Below the pieces are notes generated by a model. That model worked only from the letters and a program-made list of their open reading frames with translations, did not search any database and was not told the origin of the DNA. Below are positions 6,570-63,965 of a DNA stretch of 64,000 bases, piece by piece. The DNA is from Ptychodera flava (Eukaryota; Hemichordata; Enteropneusta; Ptychoderidae): assembly GCF_041260155.1 (NCBI RefSeq), contig NC_091947.1:26360115-26424114 (forward strand), given 5' to 3'. A program made the translations under genes and the position numbers. The stretch's first letter is position 1; each line of letters begins with the position of its first letter.

Positions 6570-23635
<17,066 letters not shown>

Positions 23636-25045: not shown

Positions 25046-25929
25046 ATTTTTCTTCGCTCAGCGAGCAGAAATATGACATTGTCACCACTTGTCTTTGACT
25101 CATGGTGATACGGACATTACACCATTAGTATTTTCCAAGCTGAACGAAGAATAATATACTTATCACGTGCACAGGCCAAGGGTTATTTTTGCAAAATCAA
25201 TGTAATTTTCTTACGCGATTCCATCTTTGAATTTTAATTTTTGGACTACTTATGGAATAAAATCAATACGCCGCGGGCATAGTCAATCGTATCGAATAGT
25301 CGATAGCGTGGGCGAGGAGAGCGGGGAACGTTTTACTGTCGTACATATGCTGTCAGGGCAATGTCGCAATCGCTCGGCTTCAAAATACCACTCGCGAAGC
25401 AAATTTTAAAGATAGCAAAGACTTAGACATTTGCCTAAGAAATTCATCGCATTTTTCTCTGAAAAGTTGGGTTAAACACTGAATCAAGGCGTTCAAAATG
25501 TCAGCCCTATCCTTGTCACAATCATTGAGTTTGAGTCAGATTATTATTATTTTTTCTTTTGCAAAAGTAATAGGGATAGCAACATTGTGGGCCTAAAGTC
25601 GTCATTTTATTTCATTTTAAGACTTTCCAAAACCGGAAGCCAAGTTTACACTTACAATATCCGGTAACGGGATATACATATTGTAACGACATTTTACAAA
25701 ACAGATTTTCATTTGAACAATTTTCTCTGACCTCTTATATGTTCTTCTGATAACATTATATATTTGTGTATTGCTATCAATGAGGTAATAAATTTATTTG
25801 TTGTGTATTAGTATTTAGGTCGATGAGTTTGTCCATAGAAAATTCCCGGCTGTCATTATTCGATCAATATTTTTTCTCCAAAACACTTAACTGTTGTTGA
25901 AGTTTATATCGCTATCGTTCTGTTTTTCT

Positions 25930-26380
25930 GAATGCCAATTACTCGACACTTTCTTTCGTACGAAGATAACTCTGATTCAAGAAAACAAAGGCCAGACGTG
26001 TTCCCATAATGAAGATGGTTGTGAGACTCACTGTGATTGGTACAATGTAGAATTCGTTATCTTTTGACTGCACCAACCATGATATAGTGATCAGTCCTAC
26101 ATACACAAGCAAAGAAATTGCATGCGGTTCTGGACAAGGCAAAATGTTTAGGGAGATTTCCTTTTGACAACAACCACCTTTGAATTTGCAGGAATGCCTC
26201 CATGGCAAATCAACCCAAACTGGCCAGCAAGTACTGTATGGTAGGACCCGCACCGCTTCGTTCATTTAGATCAATGCTCTACTTTTTACCTCTGGGAGCC
26301 AGCTGAACAACCACACGTTGAAACACATGTAACCAGCAAATGGTAGAATTCTCGTGAATGTTGGCAATTTCTCGTTTTGG
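25930..26380 (-). pseudogene. Truncated 3' copy of the polytopic membrane-protein gene
   Basis: It is homologous to 48308-48760, the last roughly 150 codons of the gene at 48290-53191. Shared parts include MNEAVR, SLLVYVGL and ISWLVQS, with internal frame disruptions. Homology stops abruptly near 26375, after GGCAATTTCT, in the middle of the parent exon. The flank at 25045-25930 also matches 47450-48290. It is the edge of the tandem duplication rather than a retrocopy, because flanking intergenic DNA came along. Its final helix (FYIVPITVSLTTIFIMG) is in frame here, unlike in the parent. Confidence 0.8.
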
Positions 26381-27430: not shown

Positions 27431-27433
27431 TAT

Positions 27434-27604
27434 ACACATATTGACTGGCCATGAGGGCAACAGCATACCCGAGGGAATGTGAGTCACCCCCAAAAACAGA
27501 TTGTTTTCCTAGGCCGAAGGGAAACAGTCTTTTTTTGGGTGACTCACAGGCCCGAGGGGTTAAAAACGTATGCTGTTGCCCTCACGGCCAGTCAATATGT
27601 GTTT
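27434..27604. mobile_element. Palindromic foldback element, about 170 bp
   Basis: The outer arms read CACATATTGACTGGCC, GAGGGCAACAGCATAC and GTGAGTCACCC and recur in inverse order on the right. The centre (TGTTTTCCTAGGCCGAAGGGAAACA-like) also folds, so nearly the whole segment is one hairpin. No target-site duplication is clear beyond a TATA-like flank. It is probably a non-autonomous DNA element. Confidence 0.75.
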
Positions 27605-27979
27605 ATAACACACCTCACCCGCAGTCATGCATAGGAACGTACCATACACAATAAAACTTGTCGCATGTAATATGCTGGAGTGGTTCGGCAAGAAAAAGTT
27701 TTTTCCCGGCAGGATCGCAATACTTCTTCAAAACGTTCAATGCACCTTTGATTATCGTTTTCGTCCGTTTCGAGTCCTTGTTGGAAACCAAAGCTTTCGG
27801 TTTTCTTCAGAAAGTAGGATAAACCTAGAAATTTATCGACTATCGTTTTGATCGGCCGCAGACGACATCTTTGTTTACATTTCGGTTCTCGCATGCGCCA
27901 ATAACGTTTTGATGTCAGCGGGCATCATTTTTCGGAACTGAGATATGTGCTATCCGCAGGCAAGGGCCAATTCAAGATG

Positions 27980-29830
27980 GCTCTCAAGGTTAAAAGTAAT
28001 GGACCAGTTCAACCAGAGATTTTAGAGCCAGAGGGAGGTAAGTCAGAGAAAAAGTCTACGAAGAAAACAGAAGTGATATTTCTACTCGAAGATGCAACTC
28101 AGGATGATCCTCAAGTCTGGTAATAAGAGCTACTAAGTAAGTTCAACTACTAGAAGCTTTTACGCACAACATCATATATGAAACGGTTCATAGATAGTTG
28201 TAAGGGGATGAGACGAGTTAAACCACTCACTAAATGCGATATCGCAGTATCGGAGAAGGTATGGATCAACAAACCGCAGCAAACATACGAGATGACTTCC
28301 GACATCACATACCGTATTCAAGTCAGAATACTGAGATGTTGTGCCAGAGTTCCAGGTTACAACACTATCTTCATCCCGAGAAAATCTGCCCTTGCAAGAC
28401 GTATCATTGAGTACAGTCATCCTCAGACATTGCACGTGGCAGTTGCAACTACAATGAGTGAGGTCAGGGAGAAACACTGGATCCCAAAGCTACGATCCAT
28501 AGTCAAATCTACACTACATGAATGCAGCTACTGTGTGAATTATATTGTGCAAAGGTGTTTAATGCTCCAGCAACATCAGCCCTTGCTAACCTACAGAACA
28601 TAATTCACAGAACCATTTGATTTGACTGGTGTGGACTTTTCAGGGCCACCCATGTGGAATCACAAAAGCATGAGACCAGTACGGCTTTCATCGCATTGTT
28701 TACATGGGCCAGCACTAGAGCTGTGCATCTTCAGCTTTGCAGAGACCTGCCTGAGAGTGAATTAAAGTGTTAGTGGAAGGAGTTTGTTGCACCATAGACT
28801 CTCGAGAAAAACTCGAGAGTCTATGGTTGCACGGAGAGGATCACCAAGTGTCATAGAGAGTAACAACGCCAAGGCTTCCATCACAACCAAAATATGGTTA
28901 TCGATGTTATAAACGGATGAAGATTTGTTCAACTATTTGACTACACATAGTATAATGTGGAAATTCAACATGTCACGTTCTCCATGCTGGGTTGGATTGT
29001 TTTAACGACTTATCGACATCATGAAGGGATGTCTGTTGAAAGCAATAGGAAGAGCTCTACTTAAATATGAAGAGCTCGAGGAGGTTCTGCTCGATGTGTA
29101 TACGTTCATGAACAACCGACCATTGTGCCATATAGAGGACGACTTCGAGCAACTAGTGATCACCCAAACCTGTTCTTGCGATGACAACCAGCACGATTTC
29201 TGGAGAACAGCGTCGGTGACATGGATGGCTCAAGAGCTGCGATGAGTATGCGTCTTAAGTACTTCAGATCCTGCAGAGAGAACGTTTGCAAACGTTGGTC
29301 AAGTCAGTATCTTCGCGCTTTGCAAGAACGTTGCGGTAAGAGAATCAAGGCCTAGGATCAGGAGAAACCAGGAAAGAACTCTCGATTGTTCTACTTCAAG
29401 ACACAACTTTGAATCGAGCAAATTGAAAGATATAGGACGGATTGTAGACAACATCGTAGGCAAGAAAGGAGTGACTACAAGATACAAGATCCGTACAGGC
29501 AGTGGCTTCGTTAGACATTTTCAGCACAGTCATCACTGTGCATGTACTAGGATTTGTTTGCGCGGACTGTGTTAAAATGGACACGTTTATCACAAAGTTT
29601 TGAGTGAAAGTTTGCATCATTATTGAATTTATTCGTGTTACATTGTTGTGATTCTGAGGTTTAATATTCATTACTACCAGATTTACCATCGTACTTCCAG
29701 AACCTGTAATGGCCACGCAAATGGATGCAGCGTGCTGTTCTATGCCGTGAGTTGAAATTTAATAACCAATGTTTGTGTTGATCGAGACCTGTCAGTTTCT
29801 TCAGTGTCACTGGGAATGGTCGGCGGCGGC
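27980..29830 (+). mobile_element. BEL/Pao LTR retroelement fossil 1
   Basis: Recognisable parts in order are the 3' half of pol: the stretch before integrase (near 28180-28260), the HHCC-type integrase head (near 28380-28540), integrase core (28620-29190) and a C-terminal basic domain (to about 29470). A degraded LTR-like segment follows (about 29500-29830) and resembles that of fossil 2. Gag, protease and most of the reverse transcriptase are absent. It is broken, with at least five interruptions, and looks moderately old. A 33-bp hairpin has inserted into it at 28793-28825. Confidence 0.8.
28786..28832. mobile_element. 33-bp perfect hairpin insertion with 7-bp direct repeats
   Basis: Positions 28793-28825 are a perfect 14-bp inverted repeat (CATAGACTCTCGAG) around an AAAAA loop. 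GTTGCAC stands on both sides (28786-28792 and 28826-28832). The ends CATAGAC...GTCTATG are shared with the hairpin at 43951-43986. It is inserted in the BEL/Pao fossil. Confidence 0.8.
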
Positions 29831-30214
29831 CAATTTCCGTAAAAAGTGTTTCAATATGACTTGCTTCAAAATGTCTTGTACAGCACGAATTTCCGTTCAC
29901 AATTAAAGGCTATTCTACGATCTGGACATACGAACAAACTCTGAAAAGAGGCTGCACTATTTTCCCCATATAATCACTATCAAGAGGGAAGTGTAAGACT
30001 AGAATAAAATGACCAACTTTTCTGTCTATAAACAATATGAAAGTGATGAAGGGATAAAACAGGACACATAGGTTTCGTCCATAATTATTGTTCAATTTGA
30101 TTCGGTAATAAACGTAAGTGACGACTTGCAAGTATATTCAATTAATTGGAAGAAACCACAAACCAGATTTTACCAAATTTTACAAACCACGTTTTACAAA
30201 ACTGCAATAACTCT

Positions 30215-30344
30215 TCACATATTTTGTTTAATAAAATCTGCGCCTTTTTCAGCGATCATGATGGTAGGTCCGTTCGCATTACCGGAAGTGAGATGAGGCA
30301 TTACAGAGGCGTCAACCACACGAACGTTGTCCAGTCCTCGCACT
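30215..30344 (-). pseudogene. Orphan duplicate of the last GMC exon
   Basis: It has the same 130-nt length, acceptor (TTTCTTTCAG) and stop position as the final exons of B (6570-6699) and C (31912-32041). It encodes [18 protein letters not shown] and [16 protein letters not shown], then ends KQNM and a stop. The partner Asn of the active site is kept, while GNTNAP has become GNANGP. It lies 1.7 kb downstream of copy C's own last exon with no penultimate exon between. It could be a dead duplicate or an alternative terminal exon for copy C. Confidence 0.85.
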
Positions 30345-30390
30345 CTGAAAGAAACACGATGAAAGACTTGTGTATGGTAATGATGATTAA

Positions 30391-31640
30391 ATATAAGAGT
30401 CTGTCGAAAGCAATAGGAAGAGTCCTACAGAAGTTTAGAGGAAGTTTTGTTCAATGTATAGACATTCATGAACAACCGACCATTGTGCCATATGGAGCCT
30501 GGGTCCTGGGCGACTTTGAGTAAGTAGTGATTACCCCAAACCTTTTAGTGTGAGGACAACCAGCACAGTTTGTTTGGGGGGACAGCGCCGGTGACATGGA
30601 TGACCCAAGAGATGCGATGAGTAACCGTCTTTAGTACTTAGGATCCTGCAGAGAGAACGTTCGCAAATGTTGGTTAAGTGAGTATCTTCATGCTTTGCAG
30701 GAACGTTGCAGTAAGAGGATGGAGGCCTAAGAACAAGAGTTATCAGGAAAGAACTCGATTGTTCTACTCAAAGACACAACTAAGAAACGAGCGAATTGGA
30801 AGATAGGACGAATTGTAGACAACATCGTAGGAAAAGGTGGCCTGACAAGAGGATACAAGATCCGTACAGGCAATGGCTATGTTGTTGAGAGGCCTCTCCA
30901 GTTGGTCTGTGATCTGGAAGTCAGCGGGGCTAATGACGCAACAGGTTTTGGCAGTATAGATGAACCAGAAGGAGCTGATCCTGTGATTAACCAGATGCAC
31001 ATTCCAGCTGATGAAGAGAAAGAACTCAAACTAACCAATATTTGAGACACCCTACTCGGCAGGCAAAGACTGTTGCGGTACATCACCTAGTTGGCGTTGC
31101 TGCTAACGAGAATGAGAAGGAGTAGGAAAGCTCGGTATCAAAAGTTTAAGTAACTTTATTAGGGAGAGGGTGTGGAAAACTCTCGACATTATTAGAAGTA
31201 TTTGCTGTTGTTGTTTATCGTTTTATCATTGTTCCGGAAATTTGGCTAAATATTATATGCAATAGTTATTTTTTTGAACACTTACTGCGCATGACGTACA
31301 AACTTTGCTCAACTGAGACTTTTCCATAGTTTGAGCACATCTTTGAGAATCTATGTGCAGGCGACGGCTGAACTTCTCTGATTTGTTTGCGCGTACAGTA
31401 TTAGTGTTTGTCACAAAGTTATAAGAGACACTTAGCTTCATAATTGAATTTATTCGCCTACGTTTGTTGTTATTCTGAGGTTTAATTCTCATTACTACCA
31501 GATTTCTCATCATACTTTGAGAACCCGTAATTGCCATGCACATGGATATGGCGTGCAGTTCTGTGTCGTGTGTTGAAACTTAATAAACATATGTTTATGT
31601 TCATCGAGAACTACGACTTTCTTCAATGTCCAGAGGAATG
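30391..31640 (+). mobile_element. BEL/Pao LTR retroelement fossil 2 with 3' LTR
   Basis: It starts inside the pol integrase region, at a point homologous to 29031 in fossil 1, and runs through the C-terminal domain. A polypurine tract AGGGAGAGGG (31161-31170) is followed at once by TGTGGAAAACTCTCG, the likely LTR start. The LTR-like segment then runs about 450-470 bp. The element is broken in several places, and its 5' part and 5' LTR are absent. With fossil 1 and the GMC last exon it forms a tandem duplication, so it is not an independent insertion. Confidence 0.78.
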
Positions 31641-31911
31641 ATCGGCGGTTAATTTCTCTGCACTTAATATTCCCTACAAAGTCATTCCATATGACTTGCC
31701 TCAAACTGTCTCGTGCAGCACGAATTTCCGGTCACAAGTAAAGGCTATAGTACGATTTGGACATATTAAGTGACTTTGAAAAGAGGTTGAACTGTATTTC
31801 CCCGAATAATCACTATCGAGAGGAAAGTGTAAGACTATAAACAATATTCAATTAACCGGAAGAAACCACAAACCAGAAGAATTTTAAATTTTGCAAAACT
31901 ACAATAACTCT

Positions 31912-34900
31912 TCACATGTTTTGTTTAATCAAATCTGCGCCTTTTTCAGCAATCATGATGGTCGGTGCGTTTGTATTACCGGAAGTGAGATGAGGCATGA
32001 CAGACGCGTCCACCACACGAACGTTGTCCAGTCCTCGCACTCTGAAAGAAACACGATGAAAGACTTGTGTATGGTAAATATGATTAAAGATTAGACCAAT
32101 TTTATTGAATACTGCAAAACGTTCTATCAAATGCTATCTTTCAAACTCGGAGTGATGTTATTTTAATATTAGTGTTCAGTAAAATGTATCGTTTATAATT
32201 TGACAGTATAATCAGTTTGGTTCAGTGTAACTTGGGAAAGTCGACTAATCAGGCACATATAGAATTGAACCACAGTGGTAGAGATACATTACCTCAGGGC
32301 CGGGTTAACCACAGCTGACGGATCGTCCTCTGCTCCCATCTTACAAGTTCCCGCCGCATGAAGATAAGGGAGAGAAATGTGACGGATGACATGTTCCCAG
32401 TATTCATCCGAGTCCATTTCATGGGGACAGTTTGGGAATTGGAAGTAGGCCGGTGTTATCCTACAAGAAAACAGTGTATTTCAATAGGGCTATCGCAGAC
32501 AAACTTGACTGATATACACTTTGTGTGTCTCTTTTGTATCCTCCTTTAGCTTTAAACCTATCAACGAGCCCATATATGTTTGACAGACCAATACTACTTT
32601 TTCGAACTCCCTGTTCATCCAGGTTGGTCTGTTTCAAGTTCTTTTCTTCCCTCAACCAGCTCCCGACATCTCCCACCTTATCCGCGCTACAGTCTATATA
32701 TAATGAATGCCACCAGGTAAGATTAAATTCAATAATTATCATCAAAAAGACAATTATCTTCTTTTGTGGTAGGAAATGGGTACATACCCTAGCTTTTTCA
32801 CAGCTTCAGCATTAATCAATTTCTGGGTGACACGCACACCCTAAACGAAAACACAACATTAAAATTTAATTAGACTCTCTTTGCCCAAATATGACACCAT
32901 GGTAGCCGATATAACTCCGCTGTGAATCTTCATTGAATGTAATCATACCCCAAAGGGCCAACATTGTAACATACCATGTTTGAATCATTAGGCTTAGAGA
33001 GAATTCGGCCCCGGTTTTAGCCAATATACATGAAGCCATCTGGAAAATGAATTAATGCTATGGTTTCATTTAATTTGTTGGTTTCATTTAATTTTCATAT
33101 AATTTGTCTAAAACTGGGGTGGAATATGTGCATGGTCACCAATTTATTCAGTATCAAACAATATGTCGAACAATTTAAGAAGTATCTTGCATCAAACAAA
33201 ATTCATGAAAAATGGCCGACTTTGTCCCTTTTAATATGCCTAATATTCATAGAACCTTATCAGGACATCCCCAGAAAGCTGCAGAGCAATTTATTCTGAC
33301 AAAGTATTCTGACAACTCCGGGCCTTAAAATGTTTAACCAAATACAAGAAAATTAGCCCCAAAATAATTACATATGCAAATATCTTCATCATCTTGACCA
33401 ACCGAGGAAGTCATCCTGAGTGACTAGCATATAAAATGTTCAAAGTTTCGGGGCAGCAGTTTTTGAGAAGAATGCCAAGTCGATGGATAACAACGAACGA
33501 CAGACGATGTATGACAGTCAATGGATGACTGACGCCACAATTAACCTACCTGGCTTTGACAGCTGATCCAAAGATATGTAATGAACTTAAGAGAATTGTC
33601 CATTCATATTGAAAATGAGCTCAATGATGCTAACCTTTATCATCGTTTTGATATCAGACGGGTCCTCGAGGTAGTGAGGATCTATTATTGGATAATCCAG
33701 AGGATCACGACTGTGCAATTTCACGTTACCGGTACTTTTAGGATGAAGCAGTCCCAAAAGAAAACTATAGCCTTCTTTGGCATCCATTTCAGCACAGCTT
33801 GAGTGTTCAAGAGTCTCACTAAATCTATTGACATAAGATGATCAAAGAGGAGTAAGTACGCTAGGTTATTTAACACCGATTTGACCTTACATTTTCCTAA
33901 CTTTTCGAGGTAAGTACTATTCACACGGGTTCGAACTCACAACATACGGCAGCCAGTCGCCTAGCAAGGAGGCAACTGACAGAACCACTCGGCCAAATCC
34001 CCACTCTCAAATAACAGTGGTTTAATAATCGGGCTTAGTTATTACATTTTCTGACTCCGACCGCTCTACACGTTGTAGAGTTCATGAAGCACTCATGCTC
34101 GTACACTAAATATCAAACATCGCACGTACAAACTTTATCGAAGCTATTCATACTAAACCTTTAGCAACAAATATCAGACACTGTATACGAGAAAGTAATT
34201 ACAGTAAGAGTAATAATCCTGTGAATACTGTTAAAGAAAGTACATGATCAAGTTATAGACAGCCTGTTAGGTTATGTTCTTTGAAACGGGGGAAATCATA
34301 GAAATAAAATTATCGATCATGAATTAACAACAAGGGCTAGTTACGACAATTGCCTTCTTCGCAGTACGATGAAATGCAGGATATGTGGATATCATACAAA
34401 GTAGTATTTTTGAATATTTGGGTTCATTTAAGAGTTTCAATTCAATTCGAAGGCATTAATTGAACATCTTAAAACATAGTGCCCCCTCTCAAACTCTAAA
34501 AGTCGTGTGCGTCCTCGATAGACTTCCGAAAGTGTCTGAATCTGAATATTATTCTGTGTAGTGATGATAGCCAAAAATTACTTACTCATCGCGAAATCTG
34601 TAAACAGACTTTTCAAGACCTCGAAATAAATAGTATTCAAAGAAGCCCGTAATCTGCATATCTGGCCATGGAAGTCCTTCCTGTGATTGAAATTATTTGA
34701 TACGATTAGAAAATTGACAGTTATCATTTGAAGCAGTCATTTCATACCAAATTCCCAACGTTTACCGTAATACAGCTAAACTTACAGATGTAACCAATCT
34801 GCCTGATATGTATTTCAGATCTACCATGTCAACTGTCCTCTGAAAATACTCTCGTGAAAAACACTAAATGTCAGAACCCCTAAAGATTGGAGCGCGCCGT

Positions 34901-37900
34901 AGTGGCGTTATTTTGACCAGTGGTTGCTGGGTATATTGCACTGTATGAAAGTCCATAAGGGACATTTTTGTAAGAAAAAAATAATTATCATCCTGTCCGC
35001 ACGAGATACTATCTTGTGCGCACGTGAAAGTATATAATGCGCAACAGATAGTATCTCGTGCGAACGAGGACCTATATCGTGGCCACGGGAAAGTATCTTG
35101 TGCGTAAACAATAAATTCAAACAGCAAATTAACTTGGTCGCTCACTGATGTTGGAAGGCTGATGTGAACAGTTCGCTTCGTCAGACCAGGGCTGGTATAA
35201 ATTTTCTGTTTAAGGTGGAGCTGCATGTTGCCAACACACTTATTTTTTACAAAGGAATATTTCTCATCAAAGATGACAAGGAAACCCCTCACACTATGTA
35301 TTTTCAAAAAGCGGAGAATCTAAAGTTTAGTATGGTAGCAATGGTTTGTGGAGCCGTCATTATTTACGACCTGGGGGTCGGAGGAATGTGAGGGGGTCAC
35401 TCAAAAAAATGAAAACTTCAAGGGGGTTTGCTCAAAATGTGGAGAGGAAGAAGGGGTTACTCAATTTTTGAGTTGATAAGTTTTGGTTTGCAGGACACCA
35501 AAAATTTCAGGTCTTTAAGTTAAAAAGTGGTTTGAAAAAGTCATCGTTAATGACAAAGTCCCCACTGGTTCAATCTGGGAGGTGTTGATCCCAGTTGCTG
35601 ATAACTTGGTCCACTTTGTTTGTTTTTCTTAATTGGCATACAGGTATTTGAAAAATGCATAGCACAGTAGTGACTTGGAGGCAATATGGTCAGTATAGGC
35701 TGCATCTCGAAATTCATCTATGTCAAAGTATCGGAAAACAAATTGTTACACCTATATGTACATTATTGTACATTGTTCTTTTACACAGATTGATTGAAAC
35801 CGATCTATTTCTACTGTCTGCAAAACACCTCCAGCCATGGAAAATTACCACAAACTGGCCACAAGGTGCCCATATTTGATCATTCTATATTTGGACACAA
35901 ATTGACATATATACATCCTAGTAAAGAGTCTTTGTTTAAAAAATAATGGAATCTGTTCAAACATGTTGGTAATGGCTCTCGACATGAAAAATGTGACAAA
36001 ATGAGTGCTTTGCCGTCACATAAATGGGCATATGATGACGCAAATTGACATGCTGTTGTATGTCACACAACACTGGCCTTATGGGCTTATGTCGGCTTTT
36101 CGTGACATGGGACGGCACATATCCACGTAATGGCCCTAAACATGGAAACCCATAACAAAATTGCCACCAGATGGCCATATTGGATCGTATCGCTACACCA
36201 AACTTGAACGGCATGCATATGTATGTCAGAGTACATTGTCCTTGTACGAAAACTAAATGAAATCGGTTCAGAAGTTGCTGAGGAATAGCTATTTTAGGCG
36301 GACTGAAGAGCAGGGCCTTATCCGTTGTTCTCCAGGACTTCATTGCGAGTACTAAAACTCGATAAACGATCAGACTTTGACTATATTTCTTTCTAATTTT
36401 CATCATTTCTGTTCTTTAAAAGACAGAACGCCTTACGCTAGCACGAAAATTTCTAATATTTGCGACAATCCAGCCAGTCAAATGACGGTGAAATACCCTG
36501 TCAATAATTTTCGGAAATTTCTCTACAGGACGTTTAATGCCAACTGTAACAAACATCTAGGGATATTTTCACACCATTCCACTATAACACGATTAGAACT
36601 AATGCGAAATATCTTCATATTTTTTCAACTTCTAAAAAGTGTTAGGTGCCCTTTAGCTGAATGTTGCAATATTACAAATTACTCATAGAAACAAGTGTAT
36701 TACTTGAAAAGCAGATGAGCTTACATTTGTAGATTAAACCGACATTACTTCACCATACAATTATCTCAAATTATTTCCAATCTTGTTCTATAAAAGCAAA
36801 GCAGCTCTACCTTTCCCTCGTCAGTTTACCTTATCGTCGAGGGAAATCCCAGCCGGCCAGTTTAACAAAACACGATGGAAATTTTACTCAGAAAAACCTG
36901 TTCTTCCATTTAGTTTAGTACGGCTAATATTGTGCATAAGAAACGAACCCTTCATCTTCAGTTGAAGCCTTACCTCGGTCTTGACAAATCCATCTACCAT
37001 AGCCTTCTCAGTATCCTGAGAGAACAAGTAACCAAAATTTGAAGTCAGTAAATTTTTTACTTCTTTCTTTTCATTGGACGCTTAAAATATGAGCTATTCC
37101 ATTGTAAACCAACGTTACCATAATAAAATGTGAAATAATTTCTGCGTTTTAGTTTCTCACTTTGTTACTTCAACGAGAGAAGTCGAAATTGACCATTAAA
37201 CGGGAACTAACAACAAATGTTAAATTGTGTTAGGATTCTATATCTGAGTGAGTGTCTGACCTGTAAGTAGGTAGGTAGGTACATGTAGATAGGTAGGTAG
37301 GTAGCTACGTAGGTAGGTAGGTAGGTAGGTAGGTATGTACATATACATGCAAGAAACAACAGAAACCATTCGACAAGGCTTGCCTAAAGCGCAAGTGTAG
37401 CCAACACAGGGCTATACTTTGCTTGCTGTTGTTCCTGAATATTTCATTCCTTGCCTGTTTCAAACGGGCACCAACAACAGTAATAATGATTTTGTTGCAT
37501 TTATGTATCCATGTACGTAAACGCATGCATATGTACGAGCGCATTACGGAAGGACATGCGTACATATCGCATAAGTATAGGGATATAGCCACTGTAGTAT
37601 TTTAGAGTGTATATAGATATTTCATATACACACTGTTGGACACATTGACTGTTAGATCGATTTCGATTGATTTAAACATGAACTTATATTTTCTAAGGTT
37701 ATGTTAGGAAATCACATTAGGGCAACTTCGTTATCTTTACATATGTTCACAACCGTACAATCATTAACATACCTGAGAAAGGGCTCTATCACTGGCATTG
37801 CATCGTATAATAGTCATGATGTGATCCTGTAACAAAATATAGACGAAGACAACCTATCTTAATTTTCAATGAACTGTGAAATATAATTCTTCATTGTATG

Positions 37901-40900
37901 CCGTGTAAATGAAAGAGAGACAATAACATATATACACAATTAAATAACTCAGGCACGCATGTGTGAAGGTAGGTAGGTAGGTAGGTAGGTATGTCGGTAG
38001 GTCGGTAGGTAGGTAGGTAGGTAGGTAGGTAGGTAGGTAGGTAGGTAGGTAGGTAGGTGTGTATGTTTGGATGGTTGGATGGATGGAGGGATGCATGCAT
38101 GCATGCATGCATACATGCACGCATAGTTGTCTGCCTGCCTGCATGGCTGCCTACCTGCGTGCATGCCTGTATGCATGCACGCATACTTGCCTGTTTGCCT
38201 GCTTGTCTGTCTCTCTGTCTGTGTGTCTGTCTGTCTGTCTCTGTCTGTCTTTATGTATGTATGTATGTATGTATGTATGTATGTATGTATGTATGTATGT
38301 ATGTATGTATGTATGTATGTATGTATGTATGTATGTATGAATGAGTGTATGTTTGGATGTATATTTGTATGTGTGTTTGTTCGTTTGATTTTTTGTTTGT
38401 TTGTTTGTAAAATTGTGTAAGATTACTTTTCATCTTTCGAAAAGGTGGAGCGTAATCTTATCTTATTTTTTATTTTTGTCTGTATCTTCTTGACATCTTT
38501 TCACCTGATGTCGATTTTACCGACTCGATTAGCAACACAAAACTTACAGTCAGAATATCTTCAACTACTGTTACCGAACCACGCTCCGAAAAATACTGGG
38601 ACCATCTGCAGAACTCTGAGCATTCAAAACGTACGGTTGGTGATTTTCTGACCTTGAAATTTTCGTAAGGTGACTTGATACATGTTCAATGAGGCCATAG
38701 TAAGCTAAGTCTTTGTTTAATATTTACGAAAGGAAGGCGGAAAACAGGTCGAAGACACGTAGAAACAAACACCCAGAGACAGACATACAAATAACAATGT
38801 TGATTTGCCTAATTCTACAGTTTTCAACATTGCATGATGTGTTTTCAAGGACATTTAAAGTTTCGTCTGAAATGGACTGATACATATTTTGTTTGATGCC
38901 TATGGGCCAACGTTTACCTGCAAGTTTTCACCGACTGGGAGGTCACACAGCATGGATATTCCTAGTGATTCCAGATGATCCCTTGGACCTATGCCTGATA
39001 ACATCAGGAGCTGTTATGGGAATTTTAAGTTAAAAATGTCCGATGAAAAACTGTGGACAACGAATTTCTACGAAGAAGATCAAATGAGAGCTCAAAAATG
39101 TAATACATCCCTTGGAATAGATCTGACATTGACACCACACTTACTGAGAGAGTAAGAAGTCCCAGGCCAGTCATACGGCGAAATGACTGGCTAAAATGCC
39201 AGTCATTTGATGACATTGTTAACAGTTTGGTGATTAACTTTGCTGATAGCATGGCCCCTGTAAACTGGACGTTGGGTCTCCCCTGTTGTGATGTAAAATA
39301 CAAGATACCACTTTTATACATTAAAGCCTGTACTCAATAATTAGTTTATTGAAGCAATCAATCTTTTATGGGATCACTGCTGTTAGTGTCATACAAACAT
39401 GTATTCCATACAGACAGTGTGTTTTGGGGAATTGAAATCAGCTACACTGTTTTCCGTAAACCTAAAGAGACACTGTGAACTCAGCAATTCCCTTGTAAAA
39501 CGGATGTTTGCCTACATAACAAAGAAAAATAATTTTGGTCTACAGACAATAGTCTGTAAGTTACAATGACATTAGTTTTTTCCCTTGGTTATTGTCTAGA
39601 TATGACAAATAAATTGACAGTTGTGTTTTGCATGGTAATATTATCTCAATCTTGAACACAGGGTGCCTATCGTAAACTCTCATTTATAACCCTCGGTAGC
39701 AACGGGGAAGCCCAATGTCCAGTCTTACAGTGGCCATGCGATCAGCAAAGTTAATCACCAAACTGTTTACAACTTCATCAAACGACTGGCTGCTTTGCTA
39801 TAGTCATTTCATCATACGAGTTGCCTTAGACTTCTTACTCTCTCTGTAATGTGATATGACGCTTGCACTGGTGCGTTTGTGCTCCCAAAAATGAAAATTG
39901 TATCATCCATCCTTCCGTAGTCTTACCACTTCCGCTTATCTTTCCATCCGCACGTTTTTAGACGCTGTGCAATTCGAGATTTTGATCACATTATAATCAG
40001 GGGATGTTGACTATTTCACGATCATGGACATTTAAAGAATTATTGTACTAATTCCTACAACTGACCGTAAATTGAGCTTATTAAGTAATACCTGTGGTGA
40101 TCCTATGGATCCCGCTGATAGAATGACCTCCTTGCGCACATGGACTGTGTCTTTCTCGTCATTTTTCAGAATTTCCACGGATGTCGCCCTTTTGTCCTCA
40201 AACACGATCTTAAATTTTATAAGAAATGCAAACACAAACACTGAGAAAATGATAATAATCAAGAGAGTAGATTCATTGAGAGCTCAAGAGCTCTGATGAT
40301 AATTAAAAGAAATAAGGTAGCTACGAACAAGAAATATGCTGTTCGATTCTTGCTAGTTTTCGTTGTTCATAAAAGTTAGTGTATGCTGCCTAGTCGTTCC
40401 AGCAGCCCAAGCTCACAGCATCGTACACGATTAGTCTACTGTCTATTAACTGCAGATTCATCTTCACGGCTTGCTAATAGCTTACTTTGGTTGCGAGAGC
40501 ATCAGTCCAGATTTTCAAATTTGCTCTTCCCCTTACGTCCTGGTTTAGGAAAGCAACGGATGTACTGCAGCGTTTTCCGTCCTTCATTGTGTACTGCGCG
40601 CACCCAAAACTGACCTGCGTAAAATCAGTGAACAGATTAATGTATATTCTGGAATATGGAGGCGTTAAACAAATATCGCCTGTCAATGAGATATATATAG
40701 TGTTTGTGTGTATTGTTCCAGAAAATGTTTGTGCTATGTACGGCTCACACTGGGTTCACAGACTCGTCTTCTCCTTCATTCAAACAGCTGGGTCTTCTTC
40801 AGAAACTTCTCATTTTTAATTGTTTAACGATAACTCTCTTTATGCCGTGAAACGGAAACTGCTGATGAATTTCCATCAGCTGAGGTTTTCAGGTGCTTAA

Positions 40901-43900
40901 GTTTCGAACAGTTTGTCAAATTATCTAACATCTGTTCAAGAAAGCTTTTAAAGAATGCCTTCTTGGTGAAATTTTTAAAAAAATGAATAAAATGCATATT
41001 CTTCATCGTTAAATTGCTTTGTCATTGCCTTTTATTACACCAATATTCTTCATTTAGATCTTCTGTCTTTTAATGCATATGTAGTCCGAGGTGAAGTTAA
41101 AACAGCAAAAAAATATTTTTGGTCTCTTTCACTTTGCTCTATTAAATTAATGTATCATATACATCTTCATATTGTATTATATTATATTATATTATATTAT
41201 ATTATATTATATTATATTATATTATATTATATTATATTATATTATATTATATTATATTATATTATATTATAATATTATGATATATAGTATAGTATAGTAT
41301 AGTATAGTATATTATAGTATATTATAGTATGATTTATGTTATGTCATGTTATGTTATGTTATATTATATAATATCATATCATATCATATTATATTATATT
41401 ATATTATATTATATCATATTATATTATATTATATTATATTATATTATATTATATTATATTATATTATATTATAGTATAGTATATTATATTATAGTTTATT
41501 ATAGTATATTATAGTATATTATATTATATTATAGAAAAGTATAGTATAGTATAGCATAGTATAGTATAGTATATTATAGTATCTTATATTATGATTTATG
41601 TTATGTCATGTTATGTTATGTTATATTATATAACATCATATCATATCATATCATATTATATTATATTATATTATATTATATTATATTATATTATATTATA
41701 TTATATTATATTATATTATATTATATCATATTATATTATATTATATTATATTACATTATAGTATAGTATATTATATTATATTATATTATATTATATTATG
41801 TTATATCACATCATATCATATAATAATTTTCTATATTTATTGTCCATGATGTAATTGTCTCCCTCATTAAAGTAGAAATAAATGAATAGATGATTGATTA
41901 TATTTCATGTGTCTTTAAGAGTCCGTGTCAGGAAAGGAGACGCATGCAGAGACAGACTGCGACACAGAGATCTCTGTGTCATTTACCTTCGATAAAACGA
42001 CATAATAGACCTTAATTTCATGTCCCACATAAAATTTGAGACAGGAAAACCAGCTTCAATTACATCTATATACCTCGGTCATGCTTGCTCTCTTACCGGA
42101 TCAGCGCAGTTGCTGACATCTTGTATCTTGAATCCTATTTCACTCGCTGAAAATGTCACACAAAAAGACGAAATCAATCGACTTTTCCCGAGTACAAAGA
42201 GGAAGTGCGTATGTTGAAACTTTAAAGTCGACAACAATGATATTTTTGGCATCACTGTAGACATTCAAAATTGGGATTTACAAGATTCTGAAAAAGGTAG
42301 GACTGAGAAAATATCCGGTCTATATGGTTGGGTCTATGGTATAAGCTGCAAGTGCACGTCAACATTTTCTGAGGGGTAAATTTTTAATTATTCACCATGA
42401 AAAGTACTCTATGACAAGCACTTATGTCTATACTATGCGGAAGGTGTGCCATCAAAATGTCTGGAAAACAAACAAGCCCATGTAGCGAGACCAAAGAAAT
42501 GTTATGTTTACTCTATGTAACAAAGACATTTAACAACTGTAAAGCCATTTACACGTAAGATCACCTCTGAGCGACACAATTGATGGGTGTACTCTATATA
42601 TTACCTCCCTCCAGTACGGTTTCGGCGAATTTGCTCTTAGTTGAGCCGCTAGATATGGTCAGCAACCCTCCTTTAGAATGATAACCAGATTCGACGTGAC
42701 TTTCACTGTAAATAAAAATGATACAACATTACAGCGAGCCCTGAATATTTGATATATGAAGTGAAGTCTGACATTTATGATTGAAGCAACAACATAATTA
42801 AAGATATCAAAAAAGCCAGTGTGCCGGCCATAAGAAGAATGTCTTAACCTCTTGCGTTTGGTTATCGTAGCACACTAATTTTCAAAATTCCTCTGTAGTT
42901 AATTGGAAAAGTGACAATCTTCTCCTCTTCAAACTTTTTATACCGATTTCTTTCGTCCTGTGGAAACTCACCTCGTGTTGTTTTCTGATTTCAGAAAATA
43001 CGGCAACACTTTATCATAGCTCCATCCTTCAGCTCCAAGTCGTTCCCAGGAATCAAAGTCTTCCTTCGCACCTCTCACATACTTAAGCATATTAATACTG
43101 CTGGATCCTCCGACAACCTGGGCAGACATTTATTTATCTTTTTGGATGGTTAACCCTTTGAGCGCCAAAGTCTCTTTTAGTCACCTTCACAGCAAATATT
43201 TTCTGATTTTTGCCAAAATTTTGGTAAAAAACTGTAGCCGATGAAATGTGATGTCCATTTGGCCCAAAATTATGAAAAATTTTACGGAAAAATTCACTAA
43301 AATTGGTAAAACATGCATGAAAATTTTGGTGGGAAAACTACAGCAGTCAAAGGGTTAATCATAAAAGATCATTAAAATTCCACACGAAACAGAGGCTTTT
43401 AGAAGAGGAACGTGTGAGAAGCATATTCTACATAAAAATGGACTTGATTTTAAAATGCAGTCTTACAGGGACAAAGCGGCTCATTTTTACCCTTTTTGTG
43501 AATTTTGTGTGATATGAAAATTTGTTTGTGTTGTTTGACTTTGTGATACATGCTGAAATATCTATCAAATGTGTACAACTTTAACTCGACTTGCAGCCAG
43601 ACAAGATTAAACACTCTGTGAAACATATTCCGGTCTATACTGTAAAATCAAGTACCGTGCACAACTATTACCCTTGCATATACTGAACATATACTGTTAT
43701 ACGGAAGTTTGGACCTCGTCCCAGGCAAGCTTTCGTGACGAAATATGATAGGCGCTGTCCTTTCAAACAGATAAGAAAAGAAGCTTTTTCTTAACTAGTG
43801 GAAACGTTTTTTTGGAATAGGAAAGCACGTCGGAAAAAGAAATGTCCGTCTTGCCAAGAAGTCACAAACAAAATCATCTGGCAAAGGGGTAATTTTTGAC

Positions 43901-46606
43901 ACTTTTGCAGTTATGTACCGTGGTCTTTTTGTACACTGAGTGACTTTATGCATAGACAGTAGAGGGGGTAACCTCTACTGTCTATGCTTTATGCAAGTAT
44001 TCAACGTTTTCTTGATATCACAAAAAGTTAAAAAATGAAGAGCGACATTATCCCTAACGTAAGACAAAATTGCCATTGTGAGAAATTTTTGATCAAAGTT
44101 AAGCCGAATTCATGAACATGATTTGTTAAGATTTTGGGTTCTAGAAGCCATGTTTACCCCAAAATTTGTTGAAAGCGCAATTTTGTCCTGAGTGAGACAG
44201 CTTCCTTTCAATCAGTACCACTTCTCGCTTCCAAAAGCTTCATCATTAAAAAATTCTTGTTAAGGCCACCTGCATGCATAATTATCTCCTACTGTAAAAT
44301 AGTTCAATGGGATGAACCTTTCTCCAAACGGTGCTTAGTTTTGGCATAAAGTCATACAAGTAGAACGTTTAAATTGTCAAAGAAATTTAATCCTTCTGCA
44401 ATCATCAAAATTAGTCGAAGCTATGCGTGAACACCTGACTGAAAAAATAATACAGCGCTGAAATACGTCTTATCCAAGAAGATTTGACACGCCTTTCTTT
44501 ATGAAATGCATTTTTGGTAATAAATGTAAAGCGAAATATAAAGTTACTACACATTGTAAATAAAGACACTGTGTAGTAATTCTTACCATAGACTGAACAT
44601 GTGCAACGGTGTCATTTGTAATTTTTGCATAGATTATAAATTAGATGTGGGTTTCCAGAGGGTTGTTTACGTAAGCAGAGATTACAATGTGTTAAATATG
44701 ACTTTATTAATCATAATCATAATTTAGTAAAAATCATAATTATAATATGCTCAACTGGAATCCGGTAATCTGATAGGCTGAATCCGCGCTGCGTAACATT
44801 TTCGACCTAGCGCAATTTCGAACTTCAGCTTGAAAACTCAAGGCGAGATAATGTCGAACAAGTGTACGGCTTGAGATTTATTTTGATTATTAAATTTTAA
44901 GCGGATGCAGCACGATGAACCTAGAAATGAAGAGTTAGTTTATAAGCAGCGACGGCGATGTAACAACAGCATAATTTTCTAAGTTTTTTGAGCGTTTTTT
45001 CAAGTAAAATTCTTAAAAGTTCGATGTGTAATCTTAACTTTACCATTTTATAATGAGGTTATAAACGGTACGCTCAGCTATTCGATTGCGGATATTAGAC
45101 CTCTGGGAAGAAAATTCGCTTCGATCGGTGATTATTTCCCGCCAAATATACTGAATTTCACTCCAGAGGTCTTATATTTGCGACCACTGGACCATGCCGT
45201 GACCAAATACCGTCGCTTGCCGTTTATAACCTCTTATTATAATATGCTTACAAACCTGCACTCAGGTATTTGGTTGCGAATTATAATCTCATTATAATAT
45301 GCGAAACTTAAAATCGAGTGGACAATGTCGTTACTTAGGGTCGAAATTGATACGGTAGTTCAGGAGCTCCCAGCCTCACACAAACTCTAAAAAGAACGTC
45401 TCAGAACGTGCATGCGTGCACAGTTGATTTCATAAAATACGGTAACGCAACGCATCGATATCGCGATTAGACATCGAACTGGAAGAATTCTACTTGAAAA
45501 AAAGCTCAAAACTGTTAAATATTATGTTGTTGTTGCATAGCCTTCGCTGCTTACACATACTCTTCATGTGGGTTCGCCGAACTGCACTAGACTTAAATTT
45601 AAAAATCAAAATCAATTTCAAGCCATAGACTTGTTCGACATTATGGCGCGTTTTGAAACGTTCTTTTTGAGAGTTTGTGTTTAGGCGAGGTACCTGAACC
45701 GTCGTTCAAACTTCGGTCCTAAATAACAATATTGGCCACTTGTATTTATCGTAAGCATATTATAATTAGAGGTTATAAACGACAAGCGAGGGTATTTGGT
45801 TGCGGATATAAGACCTCTTGGGTGAAAGTTAGCATAACTGGCGGGAAATAATCACCGACATTGCTTGTAAATAAAATGATAATTATTCTAAAACATTCAT
45901 AATAATAATTTACTGATAGTTATAATTCATGTTTGATCATAATAGGAAAATTCAACACAAATAATGCCTAATTGGCCTGTGCAATTTAAGACTTATTTGC
46001 ATTCTCTCATTTTCGTTCTCTTATGAAGTCATTTGACCTATCTACTTCTAAAGATTACTCATATGACCTTGATTTTGCTTTTCATGCCCATATGATTCTG
46101 CTCCCAACGTTTCGTGTGACAAATTTTAGCCGCCTTACCTTTCCTTTGTTCCAATTTGAGCGTTGATCGTTCATAGCAAGGCAAGCGTGTTTCTGTGGAA
46201 CAGTCTGCAAAATGAGAGCGAATACGATTCACTGTCAGACAAAACTTTCTCAAATGCCATTCACAATACTCTGACCTGACGTTGATTATTGAGAGGACTC
46301 AGGATTGCAAGGCAGATGATGGCTCTTTTTACTTTATTACTCTTCATAGCAAGTGCATCATATGGGCCATGGAAGGGGCTCCCTAAAAGAATGCCTTACC
46401 TGATATGACCAGTCGATCTCTGAGTTCAAAAGACATCTCACCATCGCTGGAACATGAATTTCCGCCTTGGTATCATCAGGGCCAGCCTCCAACAGTAGAA
46501 CACTAATGTTCTCGTCCTCTGACAGCCGGTTCGCGAGAACACAACCTGCACTGCCAGCGCCAATAATAACATAATCATAGACGTTGGTTTCTTTATTAGC
46601 AGCCAT
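31912..46606 (-). CDS. GMC oxidoreductase (choline-dehydrogenase-like), copy C
   Basis: This is the complete copy. Coding exons in order: 46400-46606, 46139-46204, 42972-43117, 42605-42705, 42097-42146, 40486-40614, 40092-40208, 38918-39010, 37773-37826, 36974-37015, 34586-34680, 33635-33824, 32788-32840, 32293-32460, 31912-32041. All are GT-AG and give 546 aa, a normal length for the family. Seen: Rossmann [16 protein letters not shown] (residues about 13-28), GGSSSIN in exon 3, SAGSIGSPQ plus LLMLSGIGP across exons 7-8, GENLQDH across exons 8-9, the active-site His in [10 protein letters not shown], the partner Asn in GNTNAP, and C-terminus KQNM. The base before the catalytic His codes Leu where B has His. 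The start Met aligns with A and B; no mitochondrial leader or peroxisomal tail is seen. The micro-exon found in B has lost its acceptor here, so it is presumably skipped. Substrate is unknown. Confidence 0.93.
33920..34012 (-). repeat. tRNA-derived SINE head or tRNA pseudogene
   Basis: Read on the minus strand, TGGCCGAGTGG (A box) is followed about 55 nt later by GAGTTCGAACCC (B box), as in Leu/Ser-type tRNAs with a long variable arm. The acceptor stem does not close, so it is not a working tRNA. Copy B lacks this stretch. The adjoining 34015-34130 contains a block shared, reversed, with the repeat at 10.4 kb. Confidence 0.6.
34985..35115. repeat. Palindromic minisatellite with GTGCG/CGCAC units
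   Basis: Four or five alternating forms of AGTATCTTGTGCG and its inverse CGCACGAGATACT stand in a row. They lie in a copy C intron segment (34920-35488) that has no counterpart in copy B. Confidence 0.6.
35655..36360. repeat. Old interspersed repeat with sub-repeats (copy C)
   Basis: This is the counterpart of 11060-11745 at the same intron position. It shares GACACAAATTGACAT, GGCCATATTGGATCGTATCG and GAAATCGGTTCAGAAGTTGC. It was present before the duplication. Confidence 0.6.
36830..36859 (-). other. Relic of the 30-nt micro-exon in copy C
   Basis: On the minus strand the segment ends GGGATTTCCCTCGACGATAAG-like and keeps a GT donor (GTAAAC). The CAG acceptor present in copy B (AAACAG) is gone: C reads AAACTGGCC, two bases shorter. 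Skipping it leaves the main frame intact. Confidence 0.5.
37265..37335. repeat. (TAGG)n microsatellite
   Basis: TAGG units interrupted by ACATGTAGA, in the intron between exons 9 and 10 of copy C. It is equivalent to 12464-12535. Confidence 0.85.
37965..38345. repeat. Compound microsatellite (TAGG)n (TGCA)n (GTCT)n (TATG)n
   Basis: Successive tetranucleotide tracts end in an uninterrupted TATG run (about 38252-38340). It is the counterpart of 13840-14222 plus 16572-16630 in copy B, but without the LINE. Confidence 0.92.
39142..39850. mobile_element. 700-bp DNA element with roughly 150-bp inverted termini
   Basis: The left arm (39144-39290) carries GAGAGAGTAAGAAGTC, CAGTTTGGTGATTAACTTTG and GCATGGCC. 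The right arm (about 39700-39847) is its inverse, ending GACTTCTTACTCTCTC. About 400 bp of unique AT-rich sequence lies between. Copy B has no counterpart in the matching intron. No transposase is recognisable, so it is non-autonomous. Confidence 0.8.
41160..41825. repeat. (ATATT)n satellite-like array with ATAGT and TTATG variants
   Basis: About 650 bp of pentanucleotide ATATT units are broken by blocks of ATAGT and ATGTT. The block sequence (ATTATAGTATGATTTATGTT, then ATCATATCAT) occurs twice, near 41310-41390 and 41570-41660, so part of the array expanded by higher-order duplication. It lies in the intron between exons 5 and 6 of copy C. Confidence 0.9.
43150..43359. mobile_element. piggyBac-like MITE with TTAA target-site duplication
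   Basis: The 202-bp element (43154-43355) starts CCCTTTGAGCGCC and ends CAGTCAAAGGG. It is flanked by TTAA on both sides. Copy B has the empty site (GGATGGTTAATTTATAAAAG near 21230). A relative lies reversed at 59137-59361. Confidence 0.88.
43944..43993. mobile_element. 36-bp perfect hairpin insertion with 7-bp target-site duplication
   Basis: Positions 43951-43986 form a 15-bp perfect inverted repeat (CATAGACAGTAGAGG) around GGGTAA. They are flanked by CTTTATG at 43944-43950 and 43987-43993. Copy B has the empty site GACTTTATGCAAGTA at 21833-21847, which shows this is an insertion. It shares its outer seven bases with the hairpin at 28793-28825. Confidence 0.88.
44735..45900. mobile_element. 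Large foldback element with nested inverted repeats
   Basis: It occupies most of copy C intron 2 and is absent from copy B, whose intron is about 1.2 kb shorter. The left arm (about 44840-45030) carries TAATGTCGAACAAGTGTACG and AAGCAGCGACGGCGATG. The right arm (about 45400-45680) is its inverse. A second hairpin (45050-45250) pairs AGGTTATAAACGG with CCGTTTATAACCTC and recurs near 45770-45860. The motif ATTATAATATGC marks the junctions (44743, 45235, 45290, about 45765). No coding capacity is seen. Confidence 0.75.
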
Positions 46607-48289: not shown

Positions 48290-51200
48290 TTATATCGCTA
48301 TCGTTGTATTTTCTTGAAGGCCAATAACTCGACACTTTTTTTCGCACGAGGAAAACTCTGGTTCAAGAAAACAGAGGCCAGACATGTTCCTATGATGAAG
48401 ATGGTTGTGAGACTCACTGTGATTGGTACAAGGTAGAATATCTTGTGACTGCACCAGCCATGATATAATGATCAGTCCTACGTACACAAGCAAAGAATAG
48501 ACTATGCATGCGGTTCTGGACAAGGCAAAGCTGTTAGGGTGATTTCCTTTTGGCCACACCCGGTTTTGAATTCGCAGGAATGCCTCCATGGCAAACCAAG
48601 CTAAAATGGCCAGCAGGTACTGTATGGTAGGGATCCGCACCGCTTCGTTCATTCGGACCCATGCTCGACCTTTCGCCTCTGGGAGCCAGCTGAACAACCA
48701 CACGTTGAAACACATGTAACCAGCAAATGGCAGAATTCTCGTGAACGTTGGCAATTTCTTCCAGAATGACAGAGAGAATATCTGTGTCATGGCGAACAGC
48801 CAGAGGAACCCGCATAGAAACATCGGCCATGATTTAGTACCGTCAAGTTCGGGTCCGGCTATCTGAACAGCCACTGTGGTGCTGTGGACCACCACCCACA
48901 CTTCTAGAAACAACCTCCAGTAACGATTCAAGTGCATTCTGGTGTACATAAGGCTTCCCTGAAGCATCAAAATCCAAGTATATGCAAACCCAGAGACATG
49001 GGCCCAGGTGTTCTCCATTGGATGATACCAGAAAGTATAGACTGCGGCCCAGGCAAATGCATAGCCGTGGTACTTGCGGATGAAGTCGATGGGTTTGCTT
49101 CCAAGTCTCAGTTTTTGACTGAAGAATCCTTGGCTCTTCTCAGTTGGCCAGCCAAAGGCTAATCCACGGTCTTTGTACTCCAATAGTAGGACCAGAACGA
49201 GAAGCATTATTACGGAGCCCTGTGAGCTGGCTACGCTAACATCTTGAGCAAGCGCATCATAGAAGACTTGGGTCTGAATCAAATGCAACAGATGAAATCC
49301 TGCATTGATGTACAAAGCATGCCAATTAAATGGCGCCATCTCAGTCGAGTACTTTGGCTCTTTTGTTTTCATTTTCATCTTCTGGGCTTCGTAAATGACC
49401 ATCCATACGAAAATTTGATGAAATACGTAACACAGCCATACGACGATCCTCGTCAATGCGGTTGCCTTTTCGGGAGGCAGCTTCCAGTAGTGCCATCTGT
49501 AATGTGCGTCGGGACCGTACCTTCCGGTGATGTTAAACTCTTCTTCGAATGGTTCCGGAAGAAATCTATCTCTCGAGGTCATGCTAACGTTGTGTGTGTG
49601 GCCAGATTTAGCATCCCAGCCGCGTAGAGATCCAAGCCCAAATATGACTGCAGTGAGACACACTATGAACATCATTCCGAATTTCCACGCCCTCACGTCT
49701 TCCCGTTTATCTTTGTGCGTTACCTTTAAGTAAAAGAAGGAAAAAGGAGACTTAGCAAATGCCAATGGTGCGTACTCTAATAACATGTTGAATAAATTGA
49801 AGTTATCAGGACGCTTGAGAGTGAATATGTCAACATCAAAACATCGAAGCAACATTTTCTGAATGAGTCCAGTGGTACAATGATAACTTAAAGGGCAACA
49901 AAATATTCTCTTCCATGGCGGGAAATAATTGCAAACATTAGAGGAGGCACAAACAGACATTATACGAGAGGGGATAAAGACAGAATATGCTGCAACACTA
50001 CTCATTGCTATAATTTAGACTCCTGGAAACATATAATCAAATGAAATGTAAAAAAAGAGAGCTGTGATATCTCAGACTTAGGGTAGCTGAGAACGCGCCT
50101 CGGGGACAGATATTCTGACTCTCAAGCTTTTACAATACTTTTCTGATCTAACACTTGTGATGGTTTATTTTAAAGCTCCTAGGGTAAGAAAGACGTTCAC
50201 GATCATAGTTTTTCAGATATCAAAAATTTTATTTTTCCTCATGGAGTTAACCAAAGGGATGGCGGCCATTTTGAATTTCAACTTACATGAAGATGTCCGG
50301 TAATTTATTTTTTTCTGGTTACCAAAATTTGCATGGTGACCCCTGATTTTTATTCTTGATCGGGTAAGAGTATGGTTGAAAGTTTCATAGGTAAAAGGTT
50401 TGTGCAAAAGTTTGAGTATTTCACTTTCGAGGTACGTACTGCCTAAAAAACTGCTGCCTGACGTCACCGTTTTGAGAATTATCTCAAAACCAAATCACTG
50501 TACTAGAAATTGCTTAAATGGCATGAAGTCAAAGGTCAAATCGGCTAAGAGTGGACCGAAATTTTACAGGTAATCGCAAAACGTCTTCATTAAGTTATTT
50601 TACTCAAAGTTAAATATAATTGCTACCCATATTGTGAATTATTTTAAATTAGGGGATATTCCACAGCTGCCTAATCGCAGGAAACATGGCCCATATCTTT
50701 CAATTTAAGTGACGGGAAATACCATATTTGAGGCCGAGAGGAAACGCTAGCATGCACTGTATTTGAGAGCAAATATGCAAAGGAAATTTAGCAAAAATGT
50801 ATTTTTTTACGTTATTAGAAACATAAATGTCATCAACAGCATTGGTATAGAAAGATGACTAGTAGCAGGAATTCATGATGATAACAATGTAACATCAGAT
50901 ATCATTTACAGTATAATAAAATGTAAAACAACTGGGACATAGAAAAGGTAATATCAATCATCCCAAAGGTAGCGACTCAGGTTCATTGGCACGTATTTTC
51001 AATTTCTGTAAACCACCGATGCGCATTTTCATGTGGAAGAAGATGTCACACACGGGAGATGGGGTACATTTTTATTGGCTACGTCATCGAAGAGTTCAAA
51101 AAATGTGCCAGTTTTTCAAATACAGTGAGCATACGGTTGTTTTACTCAAAATCGCATTTTTTTTTTTAGTTTTTTAAGCAAAAAATTTAAGTCTCGATGG

Positions 51201-60700: not shown

Positions 60701-60734
60701 AAAGAAGAAAAGAGAATAAAATTATAGAAGTATA

Positions 60735-63611: not shown

Positions 63612-63642
<31 letters not shown>

Positions 63643-63873
63643 TGTATGTATGTATGTATGTATGTATGTATGTATGTATGTATGTATGTATGTATGTATG
63701 TATGTATGTATGTAGTATGTATGTATGTATGTATGTATGTATGTATGTATGTATGTATGTATGTATGTATGTATGTATGTATGTATGTGTGTATGTGTAT
63801 GTATGTATGTATGTATGTATGTATGTATGTATGTATGTATGTATGTATGTATGTATGTATGTATGTATGTATG

Positions 63874-63935
<62 letters not shown>

Positions 63936-63965
63936 TATGTATGTATCTATGTATCTATGTATGTA
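63612..63965. repeat. (TATG)n array with single-unit slips
   Basis: About 85 TATG units are interrupted by one-base slips near 63714, 63790, 63902 and 63933. The long MYVC-type reading frames on the plus strand are artefacts of this repeat. Confidence 0.97.

Follow-up and report, generated by a model that had tools for sequence, protein, structure and literature searches.

A 64,000-nucleotide stretch of Ptychodera flava DNA, hereafter the window, contains two short perfect hairpins that begin and end with the same seven bases and lie between exact direct repeats. These structures raise the question of whether so small a sequence can be a mobile element in its own right or is what a larger element left behind. 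An earlier note on this DNA had described the hairpins as a family of ultra-short transposons. A mobile family of this kind was not borne out. The hairpins are built like the P-element excision junctions that have been sequenced. We consider each hairpin to be the excision scar of a larger DNA transposon from the P superfamily rather than a minimal mobile element, with a probability of about 0.64. At the same level of confidence, what had been taken for transposons of record-small size is re-interpreted as excision scars in which a P-type cut is preserved.

The positions of the hairpins and their perfect stems of 14-15 bp were correct in the earlier note when re-read in the window (Table 1). 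The hairpins are laid out as 14+5+14 and 15+6+15 nt, and a motif search of the window retrieved the outer seven bases, CATAGAC on the left and GTCTATG on the right, in both. Directly outside these ends stand the exact 7-bp repeats GTTGCAC at hairpin 1 and CTTTATG at hairpin 2. As read from the sequence, the duplication at hairpin 1 is unambiguously 7 bp long; the one at hairpin 2 is also readable as 8 or 9 bp, since element and flank have the following two bases, CA, in common. The claim that inner stems and loops differ held for the centres, which are unlike, but not for the arms, which agree at 11 of 14 positions (CATAGAC--T-GAG; beyond the outer seven, position 10 is T and positions 12-14 are GAG). 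For the inner arm, the chance probability of at least 4 of 7 matches is 0.07, and the outer seven bases hold nearly all of the significance. Arms as alike as this point to a pair of related terminal repeats, not to one family with free interiors. No differences were found among the 43 compared pairs of arm and repeat positions, which bounds the divergence at 6.7%, and on this count both hairpins look young.

Table 1. Hairpins, target duplications, empty site and interrupted gene remnant in the window
Feature	Position	Strand
Left GTTGCAC copy, 7-bp target duplication of hairpin 1	28786..28792	+
Hairpin 1, 33 bp, perfect arms (14/14), centre AAAAA	28793..28825	.
Right GTTGCAC copy of hairpin 1	28826..28832	+
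Left CTTTATG copy, 7-bp target duplication of hairpin 2	43944..43950	+
Hairpin 2, 36 bp, perfect arms (15/15), centre GGGTAA	43951..43986	.
Right CTTTATG copy of hairpin 2	43987..43993	+
Copy B (paralogue), empty site GACTTTATGCAAG with one CTTTATG (21834-21840)	21832..21844	+
Decayed retroelement integrase remnant split by hairpin 1	28154..28909	+

The outer motif with a spacing of 15 to 28 nt (CATAGAC-N15-28-GTCTATG) occurred twice in the window and not once in 100 shuffles. Outside low-complexity DNA, two hairpins with a stem of at least 12 bp and a loop of 3-8 nt were found, both bordered by an exact 7-bp repeat where CATAGAC starts, while 60 first-order Markov sequences contained a mean of 0 hairpins of this stem and loop size. 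When stems of at least 8 bp were admitted, the window held 25 hairpins, two of them with a boundary repeat, against null means of 8.7 and 0.017. A stem of at least 9 bp with a loop of 3-12 nt gave 160 hairpins, 149 of which were lost to the low-complexity filter, leaving 11. Several simple-repeat arrays are present in the window, among them an AT-rich one that is built of ~10-bp units and starts at 41021 (end near 41800), and others near 13786-14260, 38030-38420 and 63500-63960. The earlier note would have yielded to flanking repeats at chance level; they exceed it, with two observed against the null mean of 0.017 and a joint probability of ~4e-9 for two exact 7-bp duplications if equal base frequencies are assumed. 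A general scan of the window for terminal inverted repeats (TIRs) with target duplications returned four candidates with 7-bp repeats (null 0.45), among which only the two hairpins were free of mismatches, together with nine with 6-bp (null 1.9) and five with 8-bp repeats (null 0.35). No candidates had 4- or 5-bp repeats, probably an effect of a copy-number filter. Several of the 6- and 8-bp candidates lie in repetitive or AT-rich DNA, for which a Markov null is not strict enough, so that the scan adds little alone.

Matches to the outer motif CATAGAC...GTCTATG in viral_contigs (at least 121 matches at no fewer than 120 loci) were used as a sample of chance pairs. Among the 121 matches listed, stems of at least 13 bp occurred in three and a flanking repeat of at least 5 bp in none. 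One of those listed had a stem of 14 bp and a 4-bp repeat; being a palindrome, this GATC does no more than lengthen the stem. The exact arms of both hairpins were absent from viral_contigs and genome_contigs, as expected for an animal element. Taken as an observation, the pair of flanked hairpins is real and statistically solid.

The view that both hairpins are genuine insertions with target duplication was upheld by an empty site in DNA for hairpin 2 and by a reading frame for hairpin 1. Hairpin 2 lies in copy C of a paralogous pair, and comparison with copy B revealed 43 extra bp in copy C, the sum of 36 and 7. The flanks of the hairpin are 93% and 88% identical to copy B over 40 columns, an identical stretch crosses the hairpin site without interruption in the paralogue alignment, and the empty site in copy B carries neither arm. 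The empty site reported earlier is thus real, and its position is that of Table 1, one base to the left of 21833-21845. By comparison with the 6.7% bound for the hairpins, identity between copies B and C is 61% in the whole forced alignment and roughly 73-84% in local matches of that stretch. A survey of gaps of at least 12 bp with a flank identity of at least 0.6 in seven pairs of paralogous blocks yielded 20 gap rows (19 distinct), and a repeat of at least 5 bp was present at only two gaps, namely at hairpin 2 and at a 227-bp insert.

The latter, an insertion relative to the paralogue at 33917-34143, is flanked by the 7-bp direct repeat CTATTCA and starts with CACGGGTTCGAA, which we take to resemble a tRNA B box and possibly to mark a piece of a SINE. 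An element of ~550 bp at 17902-18450, whose ends are approximate and which contains an internal palindrome at 18303-18441, is absent from the paralogous block (empty site near 40080-40089) and has an inverted copy with 86% identity at 60725-61221 on the minus strand.

For hairpin 1, no matching stretch of at least 100 bp was found elsewhere in the window. The open reading frame upstream of it (28154-28603) contains an Integrase_H2C2 domain (Pfam, E 9.1e-8). The frame before the hairpin ends with ...WKEFVA and the frame after it starts with VARRGSPSVIESNNAKAS (VARRG...), the residues VA being encoded by the duplicated GTTGCA. We take the remnant to be of BEL/Pao type. Five short pieces of it beside hairpin 1, two of them overlapping, matched no Pfam family, so that the remnant is identified by its H2C2 domain and by known motifs. 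The argument from the frame carries less weight than the empty site that hairpin 2 has at DNA level. Together, the empty site in copy B and the continuity of the integrase frame indicate that both inserts are secondary and duplicated their target. Elsewhere in the window, a reverse transcriptase remnant, presumably of the non-LTR type, extends over two frames at 14931-16365 (RVT_1, E 6.8e-28 and 0.0029).

The insertion of something with duplication of 7 bp of the target is thus the first step of the history of both hairpins. If they are excision scars, the insert would have been a transposon with terminal inverted repeats that started with CATAGAC and were at least 14-15 bp long, those of the two parents being related and not identical. 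The ends of such parents would be sequences matching CATAGACTCTCGAG or CATAGACAGTAGAGG, with 7-bp duplications. The transposase would have cut one strand exactly at each end of the element and the opposite strand some 17 nt into the repeat, leaving ~17-nt 3' tails of terminal repeat on the flanks. End joining and fill-in may then have united these tails, with a loss of 1 nt at hairpin 1 (33 = 34-1) and a gain of 2 nt at hairpin 2 (36 = 34+2). Hairpin 1 would accordingly consist of two joined TIR remnants of ~17 nt with 1 nt lost or shared, and hairpin 2 of two 17-nt remnants separated by 2 nt (or of two remnants of 18 nt). As both tails would stem from inverted repeats, the scar should be an almost perfect palindrome, interrupted by a short odd centre, inside the old target duplication. 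Arms that are perfect within a scar and different between scars fit two parents, each with matched ends, and the arms would be terminal-repeat sequence of these larger parents.

The P transposase is described as cutting 17 nt inside each terminal repeat, and the donor site after P excision carries 17-nt 3' tails of terminal repeat (PMC2895639). This long cut inside the repeat is described as setting P apart from other characterised cut-and-paste elements. A P footprint should retain ~17 nt of each TIR with a short junction, and the hairpins measure 33 and 36 nt as compared to 34 nt for 2x17. The ends of such footprints should begin with CA(T), here CATAGAC, and their target duplications should be 7 or 8 bp long, here GTTGCAC and CTTTATG. 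The fly P transposase is also described as binding internal 10-bp sites. A scar has no room for internal binding sites of this kind and should not move again; in our reading, what the larger element left behind is no longer mobile.

A direct comparison was possible with 66 sequenced end-joining junctions of P{wa} from Rad51-deficient (spn-A) flies (PMC2895639, Table 1). Palindromes were recomputed for the 44 isolates whose junctions can be set out as a remnant with a complete target copy on either side; the remaining 22 isolates (20 with long microhomology and two with partial loss of a target copy) were left uncomputed and kept in the denominator. Arms of at least 12 nt directly between the target copies were present in 34 of the 66 isolates, with a total length of 25-44 nt and a centre of 0-18 nt, and 13 of these 34 palindromes had a total of 31-38 nt. 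Examples close to the window hairpins are 16+4+16=36 and 16+5+16=37, yet a centre of 3-7 nt together with a total of 35-37 nt, similar to the window hairpins, was seen in only eight of the 34. Nineteen were perfect palindromes without a centre (14 of 30 nt and five of 32 nt), unlike the hairpins described here, and the junctions of 32 of the 66 isolates were not palindromes of this kind. Fly P excision footprints and the hairpins therefore share their order of parts, i.e. target copy, an end of ~16-17 nt, a short or no centre, the inverse end and target copy. The fly footprints differ in their 8-bp duplication, the end CATGATG, their induction in the laboratory and the lack of a centre in the commonest product; moreover, the parent is given in flies and deduced here.

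The modal target duplication is 7 bp for 1360 and 8 bp for the P element (PMC3276498), and Galileo duplications are mostly 7 bp long (PMC4168063). The P-superfamily elements 1360 and Galileo thus share the duplication length of the hairpins; both are known as Drosophila elements, and the repeats of Galileo can be relatively long. The zebrafish element Pdre2, a THAP9-type P element, is reported to have 13-bp ends starting with CATACC(T) and subterminal repeats far inside (PMC10983969). Its terminal repeat starts with CATA and approaches the arms of 14-15 bp in length, but its duplication is 8 bp and only the first four bases match both hairpins by position. In duplication length, the fly P element and Pdre2 fit less well. 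Given the 7-bp duplications of 1360 and Galileo and the CATA ends of Pdre2, the combination of CATAGAC, arms of 14-15 bp and a 7-bp duplication fits the P superfamily, from which we infer that the hairpins descend.

Several observations count against excision scars. The longer element with CATAGAC termini that the earlier note had envisaged was not present in the window at spacings up to 8 kb: when 103 starts and 95 ends within one mismatch were paired, allowing at most one mismatch over the ends and the 7-bp repeat, only the two hairpins matched (offset control 0.08). Neither a P transposase nor a THAP domain was matched by Pfam among 16 distinct open reading frames and fragments of the window. 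Two scars per 64 kb is a high density which would extrapolate to very many per genome, but the window was selected for them; local hopping has been reported for P elements. The zebrafish zfTHAP9 protein, when excising fly P elements in S2 cells, produced larger flanking deletions than the fly transposase (PMC10983969), and intact tails are therefore not guaranteed outside flies. The target motif of the P group is given as ANAGT...ACTNT (PMC3276498); by inspection, the GT...AC form is present in the duplication of hairpin 1 and absent from that of hairpin 2, in a sample of only two. The Pfam survey of the window also covered a 574-aa open frame at 48290-50014 on the minus strand, which by eye is rich in hydrophobic stretches and matched no Pfam family at E 0.01. 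DNA related to this frame lies near 25034-26372, and four other pieces of the window are GMC- or FAD-oxidoreductase-like.

It is unlikely, though not as unlikely as the readings that follow, that the hairpins are self-standing mobile elements of ~33-36 bp, whose CATAGAC tip and folded shape would be recognised by a transposase or hairpin-specific integrase with a 7-bp stagger. Two insertions with exact ends and a common duplication length, their density of two per 64 kb, which suits a spreading family, and the perfect arms (0 of 43 pairs differ), which suggest young age or a hairpin intermediate, agree with such mobility. The centres, however, are unlike and the arms differ at three of 14 positions, so that neither hairpin is a copy of the other. 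Internal or subterminal sites like those described for fly P and Pdre2, if needed, would find no room in 33 bp, and a non-exhaustive literature search brought up no target-duplicating mobile element of comparable size. MITEs and foldback elements have inverted repeats and target duplications, as do both hairpins, but the hairpins are far shorter than the size range of MITEs and have no common interior: beyond the tips, the two copies in the window share 11 of 14 arm positions and have unlike centres. Imperfect foldback stretches at 27431-27605 and 4385-4531 are 75% and 80% self-inverse. The REP palindromes of bacteria (GTAG/CGTC) are comparable in size (20-40 bp) and thought to be mobilised, but they are prokaryotic and carry an unpaired motif at one end; the likeness is one of description. 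The repeats of pithoviruses and the introners of Amoebophrya, as described, were rejected for misfits in duplication length or structure.

Slightly more doubtful is that the hairpins are collapsed elements, i.e. longer transposons that lost their interior by abortive gap repair or by replication slippage between the terminal repeats. The end product would be the same, a target duplication and two terminal repeats, and internally deleted relatives of the P superfamily (Pdre) have been reported (PMC10983969). A stop near 17 nt on each side is not predicted by such a collapse, which would be expected to leave variable, usually longer and unequal ends.

Less probable still are excision or one-ended products with long end remnants from another superfamily with 7-bp duplications, be it an unusual hAT, a Mutator or an undescribed group. 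Neither 7-bp duplications nor CA...TG ends are exclusive to P, and no transposase was seen among the window pieces scanned. Against this, the long cut inside the repeat is the very feature described as distinguishing P, and the authors who described Muta1 of the Mutator superfamily infer a cut outside the repeat, so that no such scar is expected from Muta1. Dada, for which no terminal inverted repeats were found and which inserts in small RNA genes, does not fit the perfect inverted repeats of both hairpins; ARAGORN detected no tRNA in the window. To our knowledge, other superfamilies are likewise not expected to leave such scars.

An artefact of chance or mutation, such as a template-switch palindrome or a library or assembly error, is very improbable: template switching makes perfect hairpins, and long stems did occur in the chance pairs from viral contigs, but the empty site lacks both arms of hairpin 2, no chance pair listed had a comparable flanking repeat and two 7-bp duplications are not expected by accident.

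A non-exhaustive search of the literature returned no report of natural P-type hairpin scars across a genome or of target-duplicating animal elements of 33-36 bp. Should mobile units of ~34 bp exist after all, nothing but their 7-bp tip and their folded shape would identify them, and they would be the smallest transposons with target duplication known to us. If the hairpins are P-type scars, they are natural fossils of excision in an animal that is not an insect; they would suggest that the ~17-nt cut within the repeat, characterised in the fly P element, also worked in a lineage with 7-bp duplications. Genome-wide counts of such hairpins would then reveal, with no need for a biochemical assay, how long the cut of any P/THAP9 family is and by which pathway it is repaired; they would also expose the past activity of families of which no full copies survive.
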